Of a DNA stretch of 64,000 bases, positions 2-9,327 are shown one piece after another. The notes beneath the pieces were generated by a model. It did not search any database. It was not told the origin of the DNA and saw nothing but the letters and a program-made list of their open reading frames with translations. Made by a program: the position numbers and the translations under genes. Each line of letters opens with the position of its first letter. The stretch's first letter is position 1. The DNA is from an uncultured Flavobacteriales bacterium. GTDB lineage: Bacteria; Bacteroidota; Bacteroidia; Flavobacteriales_D; Crocinitomicaceae. The DNA is taken from the NCBI GenBank assembly GCA_903939755.1, contig CAJAII010000038.1:1-64000 (forward strand), in the 5' to 3' direction.

Positions 2-385
2 ATGGAAAAATCTATTTTTAGTATTAAACAAGATGTAAAACTCTTGGGTGAAAACATTGTCAAACTTGGGTTTAAAAATTTGGAGATTATTTTTAATAAA
101 AAAGGAATTAATGTCAATCAAATAAATCATTTCGTGCCTCATATGTCTAGTTATTTTTTTGAAGATAAAATTTATGATGAACTGAAAGCGAATGGTATGG
201 AAATAACTAAAGAAAAATGGTTTACCAATCTTGATAAATGTGGAAATGTTGGCGCAGCTTCAATCTATATGATGATTGATGATTTATGGAAAAGTAATAA
301 ATTAAAAATTGGTGAAACAATATTGATAGCTGTTCCAGAAAGTGCTAGATTTACATATGTTTTTGCAATGTTTACAGTTTGTTAA
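2..385 (+). CDS. 3-oxoacyl-ACP synthase III-like protein, C-terminal part (5' end outside window)
   Basis: C-terminal part of a thiolase-fold condensing enzyme of the KAS III (FabH-like) type, open at the left edge, so the N-terminal half with the catalytic cysteine is not visible. Seen: a histidine in NHFVPHMSS (about residue 43) and an asparagine in CGNVGAAS (about residue 81). They correspond to the His and Asn of the Cys-His-Asn triad, and the Gly-Asn-x-Gly-Ala-Ala-Ser stretch is typical of the family. The next gene starts on its stop codon, so it is in the same operon as an acyl carrier protein and two ketosynthase homologues. Family knowledge: such enzymes prime a chain or join two acyl units, and stand-alone copies in Bacteroidota clusters often act in secondary lipid pathways, not housekeeping FabH. 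The substrate cannot be told from this fragment. Confidence 0.8.
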   Translation: MEKSIFSIKQDVKLLGENIVKLGFKNLEIIFNKKGINVNQINHFVPHMSSYFFEDKIYDELKANGMEITKEKWFTNLDKCGNVGAASIYMMIDDLWKSNKLKIGETILIAVPESARFTYVFAMFTVC

Positions 386-783
386 TGAAAAAATCGAATC
401 TTCCCCAAGATAAAAGTGATTTAGTCAATTTTACAAGAGAGGTTTGTTATGTTAAAAATGAAAACGGTAAATATGAAGCTGAATTAAGTTCTGGTTGGGA
501 TGTGAAAACAGATGCATTAAATTCTGCATGGCAAGATATTGCAAATAGGATAGAAGATGCTAAAAACCTTTTTTTAGCAGGTCATTCAAGTCCAATTCAT
601 TATTATATGGAATTGAAATTAATGGATTATTCAGTTTTATCAGGATATACTGGATTTTGGAAATGGAGAATTAAAAGGCATAAAAACCCAAAATTTTTTA
701 ATAAATTAAATGAACGTAAAATGCAAAAGTATGCAGATGCATTCGGTATAACATTAATTGAATTAAAAACACCTATTTTTTAA
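385..783 (+). CDS. conserved small protein of unknown function in the acyl-assembly cluster
   Basis: A 132-residue soluble protein with no signal peptide or membrane segment. I chose the ATG at 385, which overlaps the stop of the previous gene by one base; a TTG two codons upstream would also be open. Its stop overlaps the ATG of the BtrH-like gene by one base, so translation is probably coupled. I do not recognise the family. The middle is rich in aromatic residues (HYYMELKLMDYSVLSGY), followed by a basic stretch (WRIKRHKNPKFF). The last 25 residues (KYADAFGITLIELK) recall the ending of a Cro/cI-type helix-turn-helix, but that is only a resemblance. The location argues for a role in the acyl pathway, perhaps as a partner of the acyltransferase; this is inference. 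Confidence 0.75.
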   Translation: MKKSNLPQDKSDLVNFTREVCYVKNENGKYEAELSSGWDVKTDALNSAWQDIANRIEDAKNLFLAGHSSPIHYYMELKLMDYSVLSGYTGFWKWRIKRHKNPKFFNKLNERKMQKYADAFGITLIELKTPIF

Positions 784-1793
784 TGGATAACTTTAGACAT
801 ATTCAAACAGCGCATTGTGAAAATGGTGTCACGGTTAGTCTACTCAAACATAATGGTGTAAATTTTATTACGGAGCCTTTAGCTTTTGGATTAGGTTCGG
901 GGCTATTTTACATCCATATTCCTTTTATGAAAGTAAATAATGGTCCTGCTATTTCATTTCGGACAATGCCAGGAGCAATTTTTAAAAGAACATGTAAATC
1001 ACTTGGCATTCAAGTGGAAAGAAAAAAATTCAAATCTAAGATAGAAGCTCAAAATTTATTAGATGAAAAATTGAAGCAAGGTATTCCTGTTGGTTGTCAA
1101 GTTGGTGTTTTTCATTTGAATTATTTCCCAAAAACCTATCGATTTCATTTTAATGCACACAATCTAATTGTTTTCGGTCAAGAGGATGGTAAATATTTAA
1201 TTAGTGATCCAGTAATGGAAACTACAACTACACTTTTTCCTGAAGAATTAGAAAAAGTTCGTTTTGCTCAAGGTGCCTTAGCTCCTAAAGGACAAATGTA
1301 TTTCCCGAAAACAATTGGTGATATTTCTGAAGAAACCTTGAGGAGAGCAATTAATAACGGGATTAAAAGAAACTGTAGAGATATGCTGTATATACCTGGA
1401 GGAATTGCGGGGGTTAAAGGAATTAATTATACTGCTAAAAAAATTAGAGGTTGGAGAGATAAATTAGGAGATCGTAAAGCAGCATTGTATTTAGGTCAAA
1501 TTGTGCGCATGCAAGAAGAAATTGGTACTGGAGGTGGTGGATTTCGGTTCATGTATGCTGCATTTTTGGATGAGGCAAGCGAAATACTGGGAAATGATAA
1601 GCTACTCAATATTTCAGATCAATTTACCAAATCAGGAGATTTGTGGAGGGATTCAGCTTTGCAAATGTCCGGGATTTATAAAGGCCGATTGACTTCTCAA
1701 AAGGATTATGATGATAGCGCTTCTCTTTTAAATGAAATATGTAACATTGAAAAAGAGGCTTTTAAACAACTTTCTAAAATTGTGATTAAATAA
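783..1793 (+). CDS. BtrH-like (butirosin biosynthesis protein H) acyltransferase family protein
   Basis: A 336-residue soluble protein that resembles the BtrH N-terminal family: it opens with ...IQTAHCENGVTVSLLKHNG, which carries the Cys-Glu-Asn/Asp near the N-terminus expected of its cysteine-protease-like fold. A His-containing segment follows (HFNAHNLIVFGQEDGKYLISDP, around residues 121-142), which would supply the second catalytic residue. The C-terminal half (about 185-336) is helical, like the companion domain often found after BtrH_N. Family knowledge: BtrH moves an acyl group from an acyl carrier protein onto an aminoglycoside in butirosin synthesis. With an ACP two genes beyond the transporter, the natural inference is that this enzyme off-loads the finished chain from the ACP to an amine or alcohol acceptor. 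A thioesterase-like or peptidase-like role cannot be excluded. Confidence 0.72.
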   Translation: MDNFRHIQTAHCENGVTVSLLKHNGVNFITEPLAFGLGSGLFYIHIPFMKVNNGPAISFRTMPGAIFKRTCKSLGIQVERKKFKSKIEAQNLLDEKLKQGIPVGCQVGVFHLNYFPKTYRFHFNAHNLIVFGQEDGKYLISDPVMETTTTLFPEELEKVRFAQGALAPKGQMYFPKTIGDISEETLRRAINNGIKRNCRDMLYIPGGIAGVKGINYTAKKIRGWRDKLGDRKAALYLGQIVRMQEEIGTGGGGFRFMYAAFLDEASEILGNDKLLNISDQFTKSGDLWRDSALQMSGIYKGRLTSQKDYDDSASLLNEICNIEKEAFKQLSKIVIK

Positions 1794-1795
1794 AG

Positions 1796-2542
1796 ATGGA
1801 AAGTCCAATCATTACTGCAGTTTCCCTTACTAAATTCTATGGGAATTCAGAAAAGCCGAGTCTCGACAATATCAACTTAACTATTTATAAAGGTGAGAAA
1901 TTTGGTGTGCTTGGTCCAAATGGCGCCGGAAAAACAACGTTAATTTCTTTGTTTTGTAATATTATTAAATCAACATCAGGAACAATAGAATATACTTTTG
2001 ATAATCAAAAAAAAAATATCAAAGAAAAATTCAATCAGGTAGGGTTCGTGCCACAAGATTTTGCTTTTTATGCGGAGTTGACGGCGAAACAAAATTTATA
2101 TTATTTCGGAGGTGTTTATGGAATGTCTTCAATTAATGTGAAAGAACAAACAACTCATCTCTTAGAAATTTTAGGTTTAACAAGTGTTGCTGATAAAAAG
2201 GTGAAATCCTATTCTGGAGGAATGAAAAGGCGTTTAAATTTGGCAATTGGATTGATACATTCACCTGAGATTATTTTTTTAGATGAGCCAACAGTTGGTG
2301 TCGATATTCATAGCAAGCTAACAATCATTAATCACCTTGAAGAATTAAATAAAAAAGGTGTAACTATAATATATACATCTCACCATTTAAAAGAAGCTGA
2401 AGATTTTTGTTCGCGAGTGGCTTTAATGGATAATGGAAAAGTAATAGCATTAGATACAGTCGCTGAGCTAATTAAAATAAATAAAGCGGCCAATTTGGAA
2501 GAGCTAATGATAAATTTAACCGGTAAAGAACTTAGGGATTAA
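1796..2542 (+). CDS. ABC transporter ATP-binding protein
   Basis: Nucleotide-binding subunit of an ABC-2-type exporter, 248 residues. Seen: Walker A GPNGAGKTT near residue 40, Q-loop in VGFVPQDFAFYAEL, signature YSGGMKRRLNLA near 140, Walker B IIFLDEPTVGVD directly after, and the switch histidine in YTSHHLKEAE. It hydrolyses ATP to drive the permease encoded by the next gene, whose ATG overlaps its stop by one base. The subfamily (DrrA/CcmA-like) commonly exports lipids, polyketides or antibiotics. Its place inside an operon of acyl-chain genes suggests that it exports the product or moves it across the inner membrane. Substrate unknown. Confidence 0.93.
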   Translation: MESPIITAVSLTKFYGNSEKPSLDNINLTIYKGEKFGVLGPNGAGKTTLISLFCNIIKSTSGTIEYTFDNQKKNIKEKFNQVGFVPQDFAFYAELTAKQNLYYFGGVYGMSSINVKEQTTHLLEILGLTSVADKKVKSYSGGMKRRLNLAIGLIHSPEIIFLDEPTVGVDIHSKLTIINHLEELNKKGVTIIYTSHHLKEAEDFCSRVALMDNGKVIALDTVAELIKINKAANLEELMINLTGKELRD

Positions 2543-3828
2543 TGAATAAATTAAAAGTATCATTAGTTAAAGAAATTTTATTGCTTTTAAGTGATAAAGT
2601 TGGATTGTTGTTAATGTTTGTAATGCCTCTTTTATTAGTTTTTATAATCACAGTTGTTCAAGATAGTGCTTTCAAATTGGTGAATGAAAATAAGATTGAA
2701 ATGCTTGTTGTAAATAAGGACCAAGGAAATTTGGGTGATTCACTTATCGATAAATTGGCTATTTCTGGCAGCTTTAATATTGAAGTATCAAACGAGTTAG
2801 ATAAAACGGATATTAAAAAACAAACATTAAATAGAGATAAATTAATTGCAATTCTTATTCCGATAAATTTTACAAAAAAAATCAATCAAAATTCTGAGAA
2901 AACTTCAAATTTGATGCTGACTGAATTTGGCGTTATAGATAGTTCTATGGTTCAGCCAAAAAATCAATCGTATAACAATTATAATTTAGATTTTTATTTT
3001 GACCCAATTCTCCAAGAAAACTTTAGATTATCAATTTTATCAGGAATTAATACGGTAATTGTTGGAATAGAGAATAGAAAAATGCTCCAACAATTGTTCT
3101 CAGATATGGGTTATGATAAAATACCTAATCATATTCAAAAAGAATTAGGACAACAAAATGTTTCGATAAATTCGTCGCCGGCATCAAATGGATCAAGTGT
3201 AATGGTTCCAAATTCCTCTCAACATAACGTTCCGGCATGGTCACTTTTTGCTATGTTTTTTATGGTGATTTCTTTAGGAGGAAATATTGTTAAGGAAAGA
3301 TTATCAGGGAGTTTTGTTCGTTTACAAACGATTCCTATTGCATTTTTTTTAACGATTTGGAGTAAGGTAATCGTATATATATTTGTATCATTGAGTCAAT
3401 TAACAATCATGTTTTGCATTGGAATGTTCGTTTTTCCGTATTTAGGTTTGCCTGAATTGAAAATGCCGACGAATATTTTGGCGCTTATTGTGATATCTGT
3501 TTTATCAGCCTATGCTGCAATAAGTTATTCCATGTTAATAGGTGTTTATGCCAAAACTCAAGACCAAGCTGGTGGCTTCGGAGCAATTTCAATTATAATT
3601 TTTGCCGCAATTGGAGGGATATGGGTTCCCTCTTTTATCATGCCAGAATACATGCAAAATATTGGAATGATTTCACCTTTACACTGGTGTATTGAAGGGT
3701 ATTATTCACTCTTCTTGAAAAATGGTGAATGGAATGAATTGACGGGGACATTAATATATTTATTATTGTTTATTTTTGGATGTCAATTCTTTACATTTAT
3801 TAAATTGAGAAAACAAAATTATATTTAA
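2542..3828 (+). CDS. ABC-2 type transporter permease
   Basis: A 428-residue membrane protein that pairs with the preceding ATPase. One membrane helix lies near the N-terminus (LLLMFVMPLLLVFIITVV, about 22-40). A periplasmic loop of about 190 residues follows, ending in a Ser/Asn-rich stretch (SSPASNGSSVMVPNSS). Five or six more helices occupy about 235-428. This is the ABC2_membrane_3 architecture (one helix, large external domain, helix bundle), as in YhhJ/YbhR/DrrB-like exporters. The conserved tail of the family is visible as ISPLHWCIEGYYSLF. It starts on the stop codon of the ATPase gene and is followed 8 bases later by the acyl carrier protein gene. Probably exports or flips the product of the cluster. 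Confidence 0.9.
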   Translation: MNKLKVSLVKEILLLLSDKVGLLLMFVMPLLLVFIITVVQDSAFKLVNENKIEMLVVNKDQGNLGDSLIDKLAISGSFNIEVSNELDKTDIKKQTLNRDKLIAILIPINFTKKINQNSEKTSNLMLTEFGVIDSSMVQPKNQSYNNYNLDFYFDPILQENFRLSILSGINTVIVGIENRKMLQQLFSDMGYDKIPNHIQKELGQQNVSINSSPASNGSSVMVPNSSQHNVPAWSLFAMFFMVISLGGNIVKERLSGSFVRLQTIPIAFFLTIWSKVIVYIFVSLSQLTIMFCIGMFVFPYLGLPELKMPTNILALIVISVLSAYAAISYSMLIGVYAKTQDQAGGFGAISIIIFAAIGGIWVPSFIMPEYMQNIGMISPLHWCIEGYYSLFLKNGEWNELTGTLIYLLLFIFGCQFFTFIKLRKQNYI

Positions 3829-3835
3829 GAAAGAT

Positions 3836-4099
3836 ATGAATAGAGAAGAAGTAAAAAGTGAATTTAAAGCTCATTTAATTACGTATTTAAATTTGTTGGA
3901 TATTACTCCAGATCAAATCAAAGATGATGAACCATTATTTGATGGAGATTTAGGCTTAGATTCAATCGACTCAGTAGAATTAATAGTATTGTTGGATCGT
4001 GAATATGGCATTAAAATTATAAATCCAACAGAAGGGAGACAAATTTTAATTGATGTAAATACAATTGTAGATCACATCGTTTTAAACAGAGTAAAATAA
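3836..4099 (+). CDS. acyl carrier protein
   Basis: An 87-residue acidic four-helix carrier protein. The phosphopantetheine attachment site is clear: DLGLDSIDSVEL, with the modified serine at residue 43 and the expected acidic residues around it. Length and helix pattern fit ACPs of type II fatty-acid or polyketide systems. It sits in the cluster between the exporter genes and the two ketosynthase genes, 8 bases after the permease and 4 bases before the ketosynthase. It is therefore probably a dedicated carrier and not the housekeeping AcpP, which normally sits beside fabF. The growing chain would be held on it for the ketosynthase pair and delivered to the BtrH-like transferase. Confidence 0.92.
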   Translation: MNREEVKSEFKAHLITYLNLLDITPDQIKDDEPLFDGDLGLDSIDSVELIVLLDREYGIKIINPTEGRQILIDVNTIVDHIVLNRVK

Positions 4100-4103
4100 C
4101 GAA

Positions 4104-5297
4104 ATGCAAAAGATATTCATCACAGGTATGGGTGCAATATCTTCAATTGGGTCAACAGTTGACGAACATTTGAATGCATTAAGGTCTGGTAAATGCGGAA
4201 TACAAAAAGCTCGCTTTTTTAAATCACGTTATGCCGAAGACTTAGTGTTTGGTGAAGTACCTTTTAGCGACTATCAATTAAAAGAATTTAATAATCTCAC
4301 CTCACAAAAAGAAATCACTCGCACTACTGTTTTAGCATTAAATGCATTTAAGGAGGCTATTCATAATGCAGGAATATCAGCTGAATTATTAAAGTCTGAT
4401 AGAACAGCATTTATTTCTTCTAGTACAGTTGGCGGTATGTGTTATACAGATGAATTGTATTCAGATGCTAATTTAAAAGGTGAGCCATCAAATTATGCTA
4501 GATCTTACGAAGGTTCCGATCATACATGGCGAATTACTAAAATGTTCAATATTGGAGGTGTTGTAGATACTATTAATACAGCATGTTCTTCATCAGCTAA
4601 TGCAATTTATATGGGTGCACGCTTGATCCAAACCGGTAGGGCAGATCGTGTTATTGTTGGTGGAGCTGATAGTATTGCAAAATATACTGTAAATGGATTT
4701 AATTCATTAATGATTCTTAGTGAAAAGGCATGTAAACCGTTTGATGAGCATCGAAGTGGTCTGAGCTTAGGCGAAGGAGCAGCTTATTTAGTTCTTGAGT
4801 CCGAAGATGCAGCAGGAAAGAAGCATAAAATTGCTGAACTTAATGGTTTTGGAAATTCAAATGATGCATTTCATCCATCTACCATTTCAGAAAATGCCAT
4901 TGGCCCTATTCTTTCAATGAATCTTGCATTGCAAATGACAGGAATTAAACCAGATTTAATTGATTATGTCAATGCGCATGGAACGGGAACAATGAATAAC
5001 GATCTTACAGAAACCAGAGCCATAAATACGATTTTCAAAAAAGTCCCACCATATAATTCTACTAAATCATACACGGGTCACACTTTAGCTGCTGCAGGAT
5101 CCTTAGAAGCAATTTTGTCGATTTTGAGTTTGAATAATAATGAGCTATATCCAAGTTTAAGATGCGAATCACCTATCAAAGCGCATCAATCTCGACCAAT
5201 TTTTGAATTTGTCAGAAAAGAATTAAATTATGTTATGTCCAATTCATTTGGATTTGGTGGTAATTGTACTTCTTTAATATTTTCAAAATGTATTTAA
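4104..5297 (+). CDS. beta-ketoacyl-ACP synthase (FabF/KAS II type), catalytically complete
   Basis: Elongating condensing enzyme of 397 residues, close to the usual 400-415. All three catalytic residues are visible: Cys161 in NTACSSSANA, His292 in VNAHGTGT and His326 in KSYTGHTLAAAGS. The C-terminal NSFGFGGNCTSL motif of the family is present. It starts 4 bases after the ACP gene and overlaps the start of the next gene, a ketosynthase homologue without catalytic residues. An active ketosynthase next to an inactive partner is the arrangement of type II polyketide synthases (KS-alpha and chain-length factor) and of aryl polyene clusters. I infer a heterodimer that makes a chain of defined length. 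No reductase, dehydratase or aromatase gene is seen in this part of the cluster; they may lie beyond the left edge. Confidence 0.9.
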   Translation: MQKIFITGMGAISSIGSTVDEHLNALRSGKCGIQKARFFKSRYAEDLVFGEVPFSDYQLKEFNNLTSQKEITRTTVLALNAFKEAIHNAGISAELLKSDRTAFISSSTVGGMCYTDELYSDANLKGEPSNYARSYEGSDHTWRITKMFNIGGVVDTINTACSSSANAIYMGARLIQTGRADRVIVGGADSIAKYTVNGFNSLMILSEKACKPFDEHRSGLSLGEGAAYLVLESEDAAGKKHKIAELNGFGNSNDAFHPSTISENAIGPILSMNLALQMTGIKPDLIDYVNAHGTGTMNNDLTETRAINTIFKKVPPYNSTKSYTGHTLAAAGSLEAILSILSLNNNELYPSLRCESPIKAHQSRPIFEFVRKELNYVMSNSFGFGGNCTSLIFSKCI

Positions 5298-6343
5298 AAG
5301 ATTTATCTTCAGTATCACCTCAAGTTACCTATACAGAAGAATTTATAAATGGGGATTATATAATTTATTCAAAAAACATTTTATCTGTAATTGAACCAAG
5401 TTATTCAGAAATAATTCCTGCATCTTTATTGCGAAGAATGGGAAAAGCAGTAAGAATGGGTATAGGTGCCGCTCTTCCATTAATAGAAAGAAATGAAAAA
5501 ATTAATGGTATTGTAATGGGAACGGCTAATGGCGGTCTTGAAAACTGCATTAATTTTTTAAATCAAATTATTGAATATGATGAAGGGGTTTTAACGCCAA
5601 CTCATTTTGTTCAGAGTACACCAAATGCGCTAGCTGGACAATTAGCTTTAATGTCCAAAAATACAGGATATAACGTCACTCATGTAAATGGGCCGCTTGC
5701 TTTTGAAAATGCAATCTTGGATGCAATGATGTTTTTGGAAGGAGCAAGCAATAAAACTTCTTTATTGCTTGGTGCAGTCGAAGAAATATCAAATTATAAT
5801 TATAATATTGATCTAATAGCTGGCAGATATAAATTGGAAAATATTGCCAATAATGATTTAATAACAAGTCAAACAAACGGTTCAATTTGTGGGGAAGGAG
5901 CTACAATGTTTATTGTATCAAATGATGCAAATGATGCATTGGCAAAAATCATCAATTTAAAGCAAATCAATTTTCCAAATCAAATTGATTTGGAGCAATT
6001 ACTTAATCAATTTTTGATTGAAAATGATCTAATTCCTGACGATATTGATTTACTCATTTTAGGGAATAATGGCGATGTTCAATTTGATTCTTGGTATGTG
6101 CTATTAAGATCATGTTTTCCGGCGAATATGGAGTATGTTTATTATAAAAATTTCGTGGGGGAATTTCGCACTAATTCTGCGTTTGCATTGTTTTTTGCAA
6201 CTCAACTTTTAAATGGCCGATTTCATAATCATAAAGGCATTCAAGGTAATTTTCGAAATACCCCTAAAACTATTTTGATTTATAATCAATTTGAAGGAAT
6301 TCATCATAGTTTTATTTTAGTGCAATCTCCAGAACCAGAATAA
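5288..6343 (+). CDS. chain-length-factor-like ketosynthase homologue (catalytic residues lost)
   Basis: About 351 residues with the thiolase fold of the ketosynthases (for example MGTANGGLENCINFL and QSTPNALAGQLALM near the N-terminus). The three active-site positions do not match: where the partner has TACSSSANA this protein has NGPLAFENA (Cys to Pro); the HGTGT loop is LGNNGDVQFD; and the second histidine of TGHTLAA is replaced in VGEFRTNSA. It therefore cannot condense by the normal mechanism and is most like the chain-length-factor subunits that pair with an active ketosynthase. I prefer the ATG at 5288, overlapping the previous stop by 10 bases; an ATG at 5264 would add eight residues. 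It is the last gene of the operon and faces a minus-strand gene 36 bases away. Confidence 0.8.
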   Translation: MYLKDLSSVSPQVTYTEEFINGDYIIYSKNILSVIEPSYSEIIPASLLRRMGKAVRMGIGAALPLIERNEKINGIVMGTANGGLENCINFLNQIIEYDEGVLTPTHFVQSTPNALAGQLALMSKNTGYNVTHVNGPLAFENAILDAMMFLEGASNKTSLLLGAVEEISNYNYNIDLIAGRYKLENIANNDLITSQTNGSICGEGATMFIVSNDANDALAKIINLKQINFPNQIDLEQLLNQFLIENDLIPDDIDLLILGNNGDVQFDSWYVLLRSCFPANMEYVYYKNFVGEFRTNSAFALFFATQLLNGRFHNHKGIQGNFRNTPKTILIYNQFEGIHHSFILVQSPEPE

Positions 6344-8107: not shown

Positions 8108-8147
8108 ACGTTTTTTTAATTCTTGTTATCAAAGTTCTCTGTTTAGC

Positions 8148-8205
8148 TTGACAATTCAAGTCAACGTGAATTCAACTCAAAAAATAGTTTGACAAGTCAA
8201 ATCAA
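8148..8205 (-). promoter_or_regulatory. putative operator pair, TTGAC-N7-GTCAA type, upstream of the lipoprotein gene
   Basis: On the plus strand TTGACAATTCAAGTCAA (8148-8164) is an inverted repeat of TTGAC and GTCAA with a 7-base spacer. A second, less regular copy, TTGACAAGTCAAATCAA, lies at 8189-8205, and a half-like element lies between them. The stretch about 8138-8218 is repeated almost unchanged at 9259-9340. Spacing and conservation suggest a repressor or activator site for the gene starting at 8107; the WYL regulator at 9381 is the obvious candidate (inference). Confidence 0.55.
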
Positions 8206-9229: not shown

Positions 9230-9268
9230 GTTTCAGGGTTTTAAATTTTATCAAATCTCTCTGTTTCG

Positions 9269-9327
9269 TTGGACAATTCAAGTCAATATGAATTCAAGTC
9301 AAAAAATAGTTTGACAATTCAGGTCAA
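9269..9327. promoter_or_regulatory. putative operators in the divergent SHOCT gene / WYL regulator gap
   Basis: Two copies of the motif lie between the divergent genes: TTGGACAATTCAAGTCAA at 9269-9286 and TTGACAATTCAGGTCAA at 9311-9327, with a half copy (GAATTCAAGTCAA) between them. The second is about 55 bases upstream of the regulator start and the first about 40 bases upstream of the SHOCT gene start. One protein bound here could govern both promoters, including that of the regulator itself. Confidence 0.55.

Follow-up and report, generated by a model that had tools for sequence, protein, structure and literature searches.

The eight genes at the left end of the window (the whole stretch of DNA analyzed, 64,000 nucleotides, C38:1-64000 of an assembly in 78 contigs) very probably (roughly 94%) belong, judging by their sequences, to a flexirubin biosynthesis cluster of ordinary type, of which they form the dar half, cut off from the rest by a contig break. 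Flexirubins are orange bacterial pigments in which a polyene acid is esterified with a resorcinol. Base 1 of the window is also the end of its contig, and it is because the window begins at this assembly break that the gene set seemed new and incomplete. It is not new; the set is already known, since the order of the Azoarcus dar genes has been published and NCBIfam already names DarG and DarH resorcinol/flexirubin families.

The first-pass annotation described eight reading frames that overlap or lie within 8 bases of each other, and all eight were found where it placed them (Table 1); starts and stops were checked for the seven complete ones, and adjacent genes overlap or are separated by at most 7 bases. 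NCBIfam labels the second and third genes flexirubin DarG and DarH, both above cut-off. No Pfam family matched the 132-aa DarG, and its predicted model gave no Foldseek match at E ≤0.001 (best 6.1e-3); its C-terminal half aligns with helix-turn-helix domains (Z up to 8.9), and its N-terminal 40 residues are modeled with low confidence. The acyl carrier protein (ACP) has the intact serine ascribed to it, and the description of the ketosynthase (KS) pair as one active and one inactive member agrees with the motifs: NTACSSS, NAHGTGT, and TGHTLAAA are present in the first, whereas no catalytic motif was found in the second with the search patterns used. Elsewhere in the window, the sole Rfam match above threshold is an S4-Flavobacteria ribosomal protein leader (RF03141, 63447-63478), and two plus-strand frames (about 8110-8192 and 9240-9314) end in near-identical residues (TIQVNVNSTQKIV and TIQVNMNSSQKIV), so they probably mark a short repeat upstream of the neighboring minus-strand genes.

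Table 1 Genes of the dar region at the left end of the window (window coordinates)
Gene or product	Position	Strand	Evidence
darB 3' part (StlD/DarB ketosynthase; ACP_syn_III_C)	2..385	+	NF053539 model positions 252-377
darG, 132 aa	385..783	+	NF053545 flexirubin DarG, 177.9 bits (cut-off 170)
darH, BtrH-related acyltransferase, Cys12/His126/Asp142	783..1793	+	NF053550, 465.3 bits (cut-off 300); BtrH_N and DUF4872
ABC transporter ATPase	1796..2542	+	PF00005, E 4.6e-31
ABC-2 type permease	2542..3828	+	PF12698, E 2.6e-30
Acyl carrier protein, DSI serine at residue 43	3836..4099	+	PF00550; 50% identity with ACP on C14
Ketosynthase, Cys and two His motifs	4104..5297	+	PF00109 and PF02801; 45% identity with KS on C14
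Ketosynthase-like protein	5288..6343	+	PF13723 (ketosynthase-like N-terminal domain); 28% identity with KS-like protein on C14

The first frame leads to the other half of the cluster. Window bases 1-106 are 100% identical to C14:84109-84214, and the DarB model (NF053539) is matched over positions 1-286 on C14 and 252-377 on C38. When the two contigs are joined over this overlap, darB is an open frame of 382 aa that scores 605.3 bits (cut-off 550), and the DarB of the Fluviicola locus L037 is likewise 382 aa long. The "KAS III-like end" of the first-pass annotation thus has the domain assigned to it (ACP_syn_III_C), but the frame appears to be the final third of darB, truncated where the contig begins, and not a separate gene.

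The part of the cluster on C14 spans from about C14:56500 to the darB overlap. It begins on the left with a C45-family acyltransferase/hydrolase, FlxY, and a 216-aa protein, which are followed on the minus strand by a halogenase-like FAD enzyme, a CrtI-like FAD enzyme, an MMPL/acyltransferase/methyltransferase fusion, and a second CrtI-like enzyme. Next come an FlxJ-like methyltransferase, FlxA, FlxB, a KS, an ACP, an LPLAT, a weak FabZ-like protein, and a thioesterase, and then a KS, a 204-aa protein, an ACP, a KS, a KS-like protein, a polysaccharide deacetylase, LolA2, and a FabA-like protein; the right end holds a glycosyltransferase (minus strand), a small protein, a DarA-like protein, and the first part of DarB. 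Both aromatic starter genes are present above cut-off, the FlxA tyrosine ammonia-lyase (810 bits, cut-off 700) and the FlxY CoA ligase (537, cut-off 520), and a polyene elongation set is formed by the ketosynthases, the ACPs, the FlxB ketoreductase (388, cut-off 340), and dehydratase-like genes, which are weak (one has a FabA-like Pfam match, the other no Pfam family). LolA2 reaches 129.5 bits (cut-off 125) and the FlxJ-like methyltransferase falls below its cut-off (439 vs 560). Thus, the curated NCBIfam flexirubin/resorcinol models that are passed are those for FlxA, FlxB, LolA2, FlxY, DarG, DarH, and the joined DarB. The DarA-like protein, which we take to be DarA from its position, matched no model among the family searches. 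An aryl polyene cluster lacking a resorcinol part is ruled out by the presence of DarB, DarG, and DarH. The halogenase-like enzyme (PF04820, L129:13119-14342) is also found in genomes G304 and G340, and chlorination of a pigment ring is a possible role for it. To the left of the first cluster gene, at a distance of about 2.4 kb, is a phage-integrase-family tyrosine recombinase (C14 ~52.9-54.2 kb; L129:5904-7154, minus strand).

The first-pass annotation had proposed reading the sequence left of base 1, and upstream genes completing a flexirubin cluster, which it named as the outcome contrary to its own reading, are what C14 contains. It had also proposed looking for the same gene order in other genomes. 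In a same-family genome (G304) a single contig carries the entire row, arranged as in C14 followed by C38, from the C45 gene and FlxY through the last KS-like gene, and the Fluviicola locus L037 has the unbroken right part, in the same order, from the ketosynthase KS_b through the last KS-like gene.

The same gene order has been in print since 2014. As given in Table 1 of the arcuflavin paper on Azoarcus sp. BH72 (PMC3949708), darA, darB, darD, darE, darF, darI, darC, darJ, and darK, with the products DarA, DarB, hypothetical, BtrH-like, ABC ATPase, ABC permease, ACP, KS, and hypothetical, follow the order found here. That table differs in having two extra small genes between the ATPase darF and the permease darI; it is these that are called darG and darH in Azoarcus, and they are not the DarG and DarH of NCBIfam. 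The Azoarcus polyene genes are described as lying elsewhere and using a different starter, hydroxybenzoate (PMC3949708). The aromatic-starter, ketoreductase, and dehydratase-like genes on C14 overturn the earlier view that the genes were neither a flexirubin cluster nor tied to any described product. Compared by published description, the flexirubin clusters of Flavobacterium johnsoniae UW101 and Chitinophaga pinensis share FlxA, FlxB, FlxY, KS, ACP, LolA, and DarA/DarB-type genes with the present one; that of F. johnsoniae is given as 37 kb, and C. pinensis, unlike the arrangement here, is described as having its flx and dar genes in two separate clusters (PMC3992019). Dyadobacter HH091 is also reported to have dar and flx genes with ABC transporters (PMC9606717).

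The genes also occur together across the class. In a sample of 396 genomes (that of the window included), DarH above cut-off is present in 66, FlxA-like proteins in 72, DarB-like proteins in 68, and all three in 65; DarH is accompanied by DarB in 66 of 66 genomes and by FlxA in 65 of 66, FlxA is alone in five genomes, FlxA and DarB lack DarH in two, and DarH and DarB lack FlxA in one. In these counts, six genomes with sub-cut-off DarH matches were excluded; FlxA-like means at least 635 bits (8 of the 72 are under the curated cut-off), and DarB-like means at least about 456 bits, plus two split genes (G000 and G149). Seven genomes (G050, G068, G210, G248, G330, G367, and G388; 351-403 bits, frames of ~620 aa) were dropped from the DarB-like set; none of them belongs to the DarH or the FlxA set, and counting them would add only genomes with DarB-like alone. 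Neighborhoods were viewed for two of the five FlxA-only genomes (G237 and G340) and for both genomes with FlxA and DarB but no DarH, in one of which (G106) DarB stands alone with no DarA match nearby, and in the other of which (G179) the DarB contig is just 5.5 kb.

The end of DarB lies upstream of DarH by <600 bases in 25 of the 66 genomes and by 600-3000 bases in 18; it is elsewhere on the same contig in nine and on another contig in 14. Neighbors were tallied at the loci of the best 80 of at least 572 confirmed DarH relatives, many of these loci being truncated at contig ends: 79 have DarG, 76 the DarB C-terminus, 75 its N-terminus, 70 the ATPase, 69 DarA, 68 the permease, and 64 the ACP. 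The DarG-DarH gap is <60 bases in 61 of the 65 loci where it was measured (14 of the other 15 had no start found by the script and one had no DarG). In some loci, L081 among them, the ACP is followed by something other than the KS pair. Searching plasmids with DarH returned 56 records, every one <60% identical, and 45 came from Acinetobacter. DarH was not found in 28 distinct other genomes of the same genus (sets of 24 and 8), so the cluster is patchy within the genus. The G+C content of the cluster parts is 31.4-31.5%, compared with 35.8% in the remainder of the window, a difference that could point to acquisition from outside or simply to loss elsewhere.

PMC3992019 describes how FlxA and FlxY initiate the polyene and how DarA and DarB form the resorcinol. 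In this reading, FlxA deaminates tyrosine and FlxY activates 4-coumarate, which other C14 enzymes extend and reduce to an aryl polyene on ACPs; a 2,5-dialkylresorcinol is formed by DarB and DarA through condensation of two fatty-acid intermediates. The window's ACP/KS/KS-like trio is a diverged copy of one found among the polyene genes. In three polyene clusters that lack a dar operon (in G106, G237, and G340; 19.5 kb viewed in each) only one such trio is seen, and thus the second trio seems tied to the resorcinol part; it most likely serves that side, perhaps by feeding DarB. The ABC pair, together with LolA2, would move the pigment outwards.

The step that joins the two halves is where DarH may act. 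It matches BtrH_N (167 bits, cut-off 29.7) and DUF4872 (197 bits, cut-off 28), and its predicted model (mean pLDDT 92) shares the two-domain fold of the BtrH/CtaG/CcbD/AziU3-type cysteine acyltransferases over 292-310 residues at 10-15% identity. The closest comparison is with CtaG (Z 24.8, rmsd 3.3, 295 residues aligned), followed by AziU2-U3 (Z 22.6) and CcbD (Z 22.3), and Foldseek matches have E from 4.3e-10; a sequence search against solved structures returned one match only, to an antifreeze protein (E 0.2). All 34 sequences in an alignment of 34 keep residues C12, H126, and D142, which were compared with C11, H128, and D144 of CtaG (as given in PDB titles) by their order and spacing, in which they agree, and not by superposition. 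By analogy with these relatives, DarH would pass on a chain bound to an ACP, and the ester bond between polyene acid and resorcinol in flexirubins makes the phenol its likely acceptor. We consider it an even bet that DarH is the flexirubin ester synthase, an oxygen-acylating enzyme that would load the polyenoyl chain from its ACP onto Cys12 and pass it to a phenolic hydroxyl of the dialkylresorcinol. To our knowledge, characterized members of the CtaG/CcbD-type family form amides, and a phenol acceptor would be new. CcbD is described as moving an acyl group from a carrier protein to its cysteine and then to an amine, forming an amide (PMC12945683), and BtrH as acting on an aminoglycoside (PMC10318531). 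A search of open-licence literature since 2015 for flexirubin ester bond formation by an acyltransferase found nothing.

A somewhat less favored but serious possibility is that the ester is made by another enzyme, such as an FlxW-type ligase-like protein, the C45-family acyltransferase/hydrolase, or an LPLAT, and that DarH works on the resorcinol side, for example by moving acyl chains between ACPs and DarB. The joining step is tentatively assigned to FlxW, a ligase-like protein, in PMC3992019, in contrast to DarH here. The C45 gene does lie within the cluster. No such gene was seen in G106, G237, or G340, although the 19.5 kb viewed in each may be too short to reach it. DarH and DarG stand beside darA-darB in most loci, and the constant company of DarB is also expected of a resorcinol-side enzyme, so the gene profile of DarH fits that role equally well. 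Fold relatives such as CcbD, however, transfer carrier-bound acyl groups to small acceptors, which is a better fit to a joining step.

The two contigs could also be separated or rearranged in the organism, with darB truly interrupted and the cluster broken. In the genome itself the 106-base overlap and synteny point to linkage of the halves, yet they are on two contigs and C14 runs on beyond the overlap for 502 bases of other sequence (C14:84215-84716; L002:1607-2108), so their adjacency rests on the overlap, the open frame, and synteny, not on reads. This tail includes a short cysteine-containing frame. Of 15 other genomes of the genus that were searched, 3 contain a piece of it (44-56 bases), one of them in two copies; the tail and its recurrence speak for an interruption. 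The tail may be an assembly branch, which, although unproven, is the reading adopted here; alternatively, it may be an interspersed repeat or a cassette-like element. A real interruption is improbable, as C38 opens with the overlap from its first base, joining gives an open frame of the same length as the Fluviicola DarB, and the neighboring gene order is that of intact clusters.

The first-pass annotation's own explanation, a self-contained, compact type II acyl-assembly cluster for attaching a short chain to an amine and exporting the conjugate, fits the gene content of 2-6343 alone, but it is scarcely credible given that C14 supplies the missing genes, that DarG and DarH belong to curated flexirubin/resorcinol families, and that among the 396 genomes DarH above cut-off never occurs without DarB; neither a separate short-chain system nor an amine acceptor found support. 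Its domain reading and general logic, an ACP-bound acyl chain, a cysteine acyltransferase, and ABC export, fit the flexirubin cluster. A false lead is thereby removed: half of a common pigment cluster resembled a new pathway because it began at the edge of a contig. What remains is DarH as a testable candidate for the ester-forming step of flexirubin synthesis; if this assignment is true, DarH would be an oxygen-acylating member of a family of cysteine acyltransferases otherwise known for forming amides.
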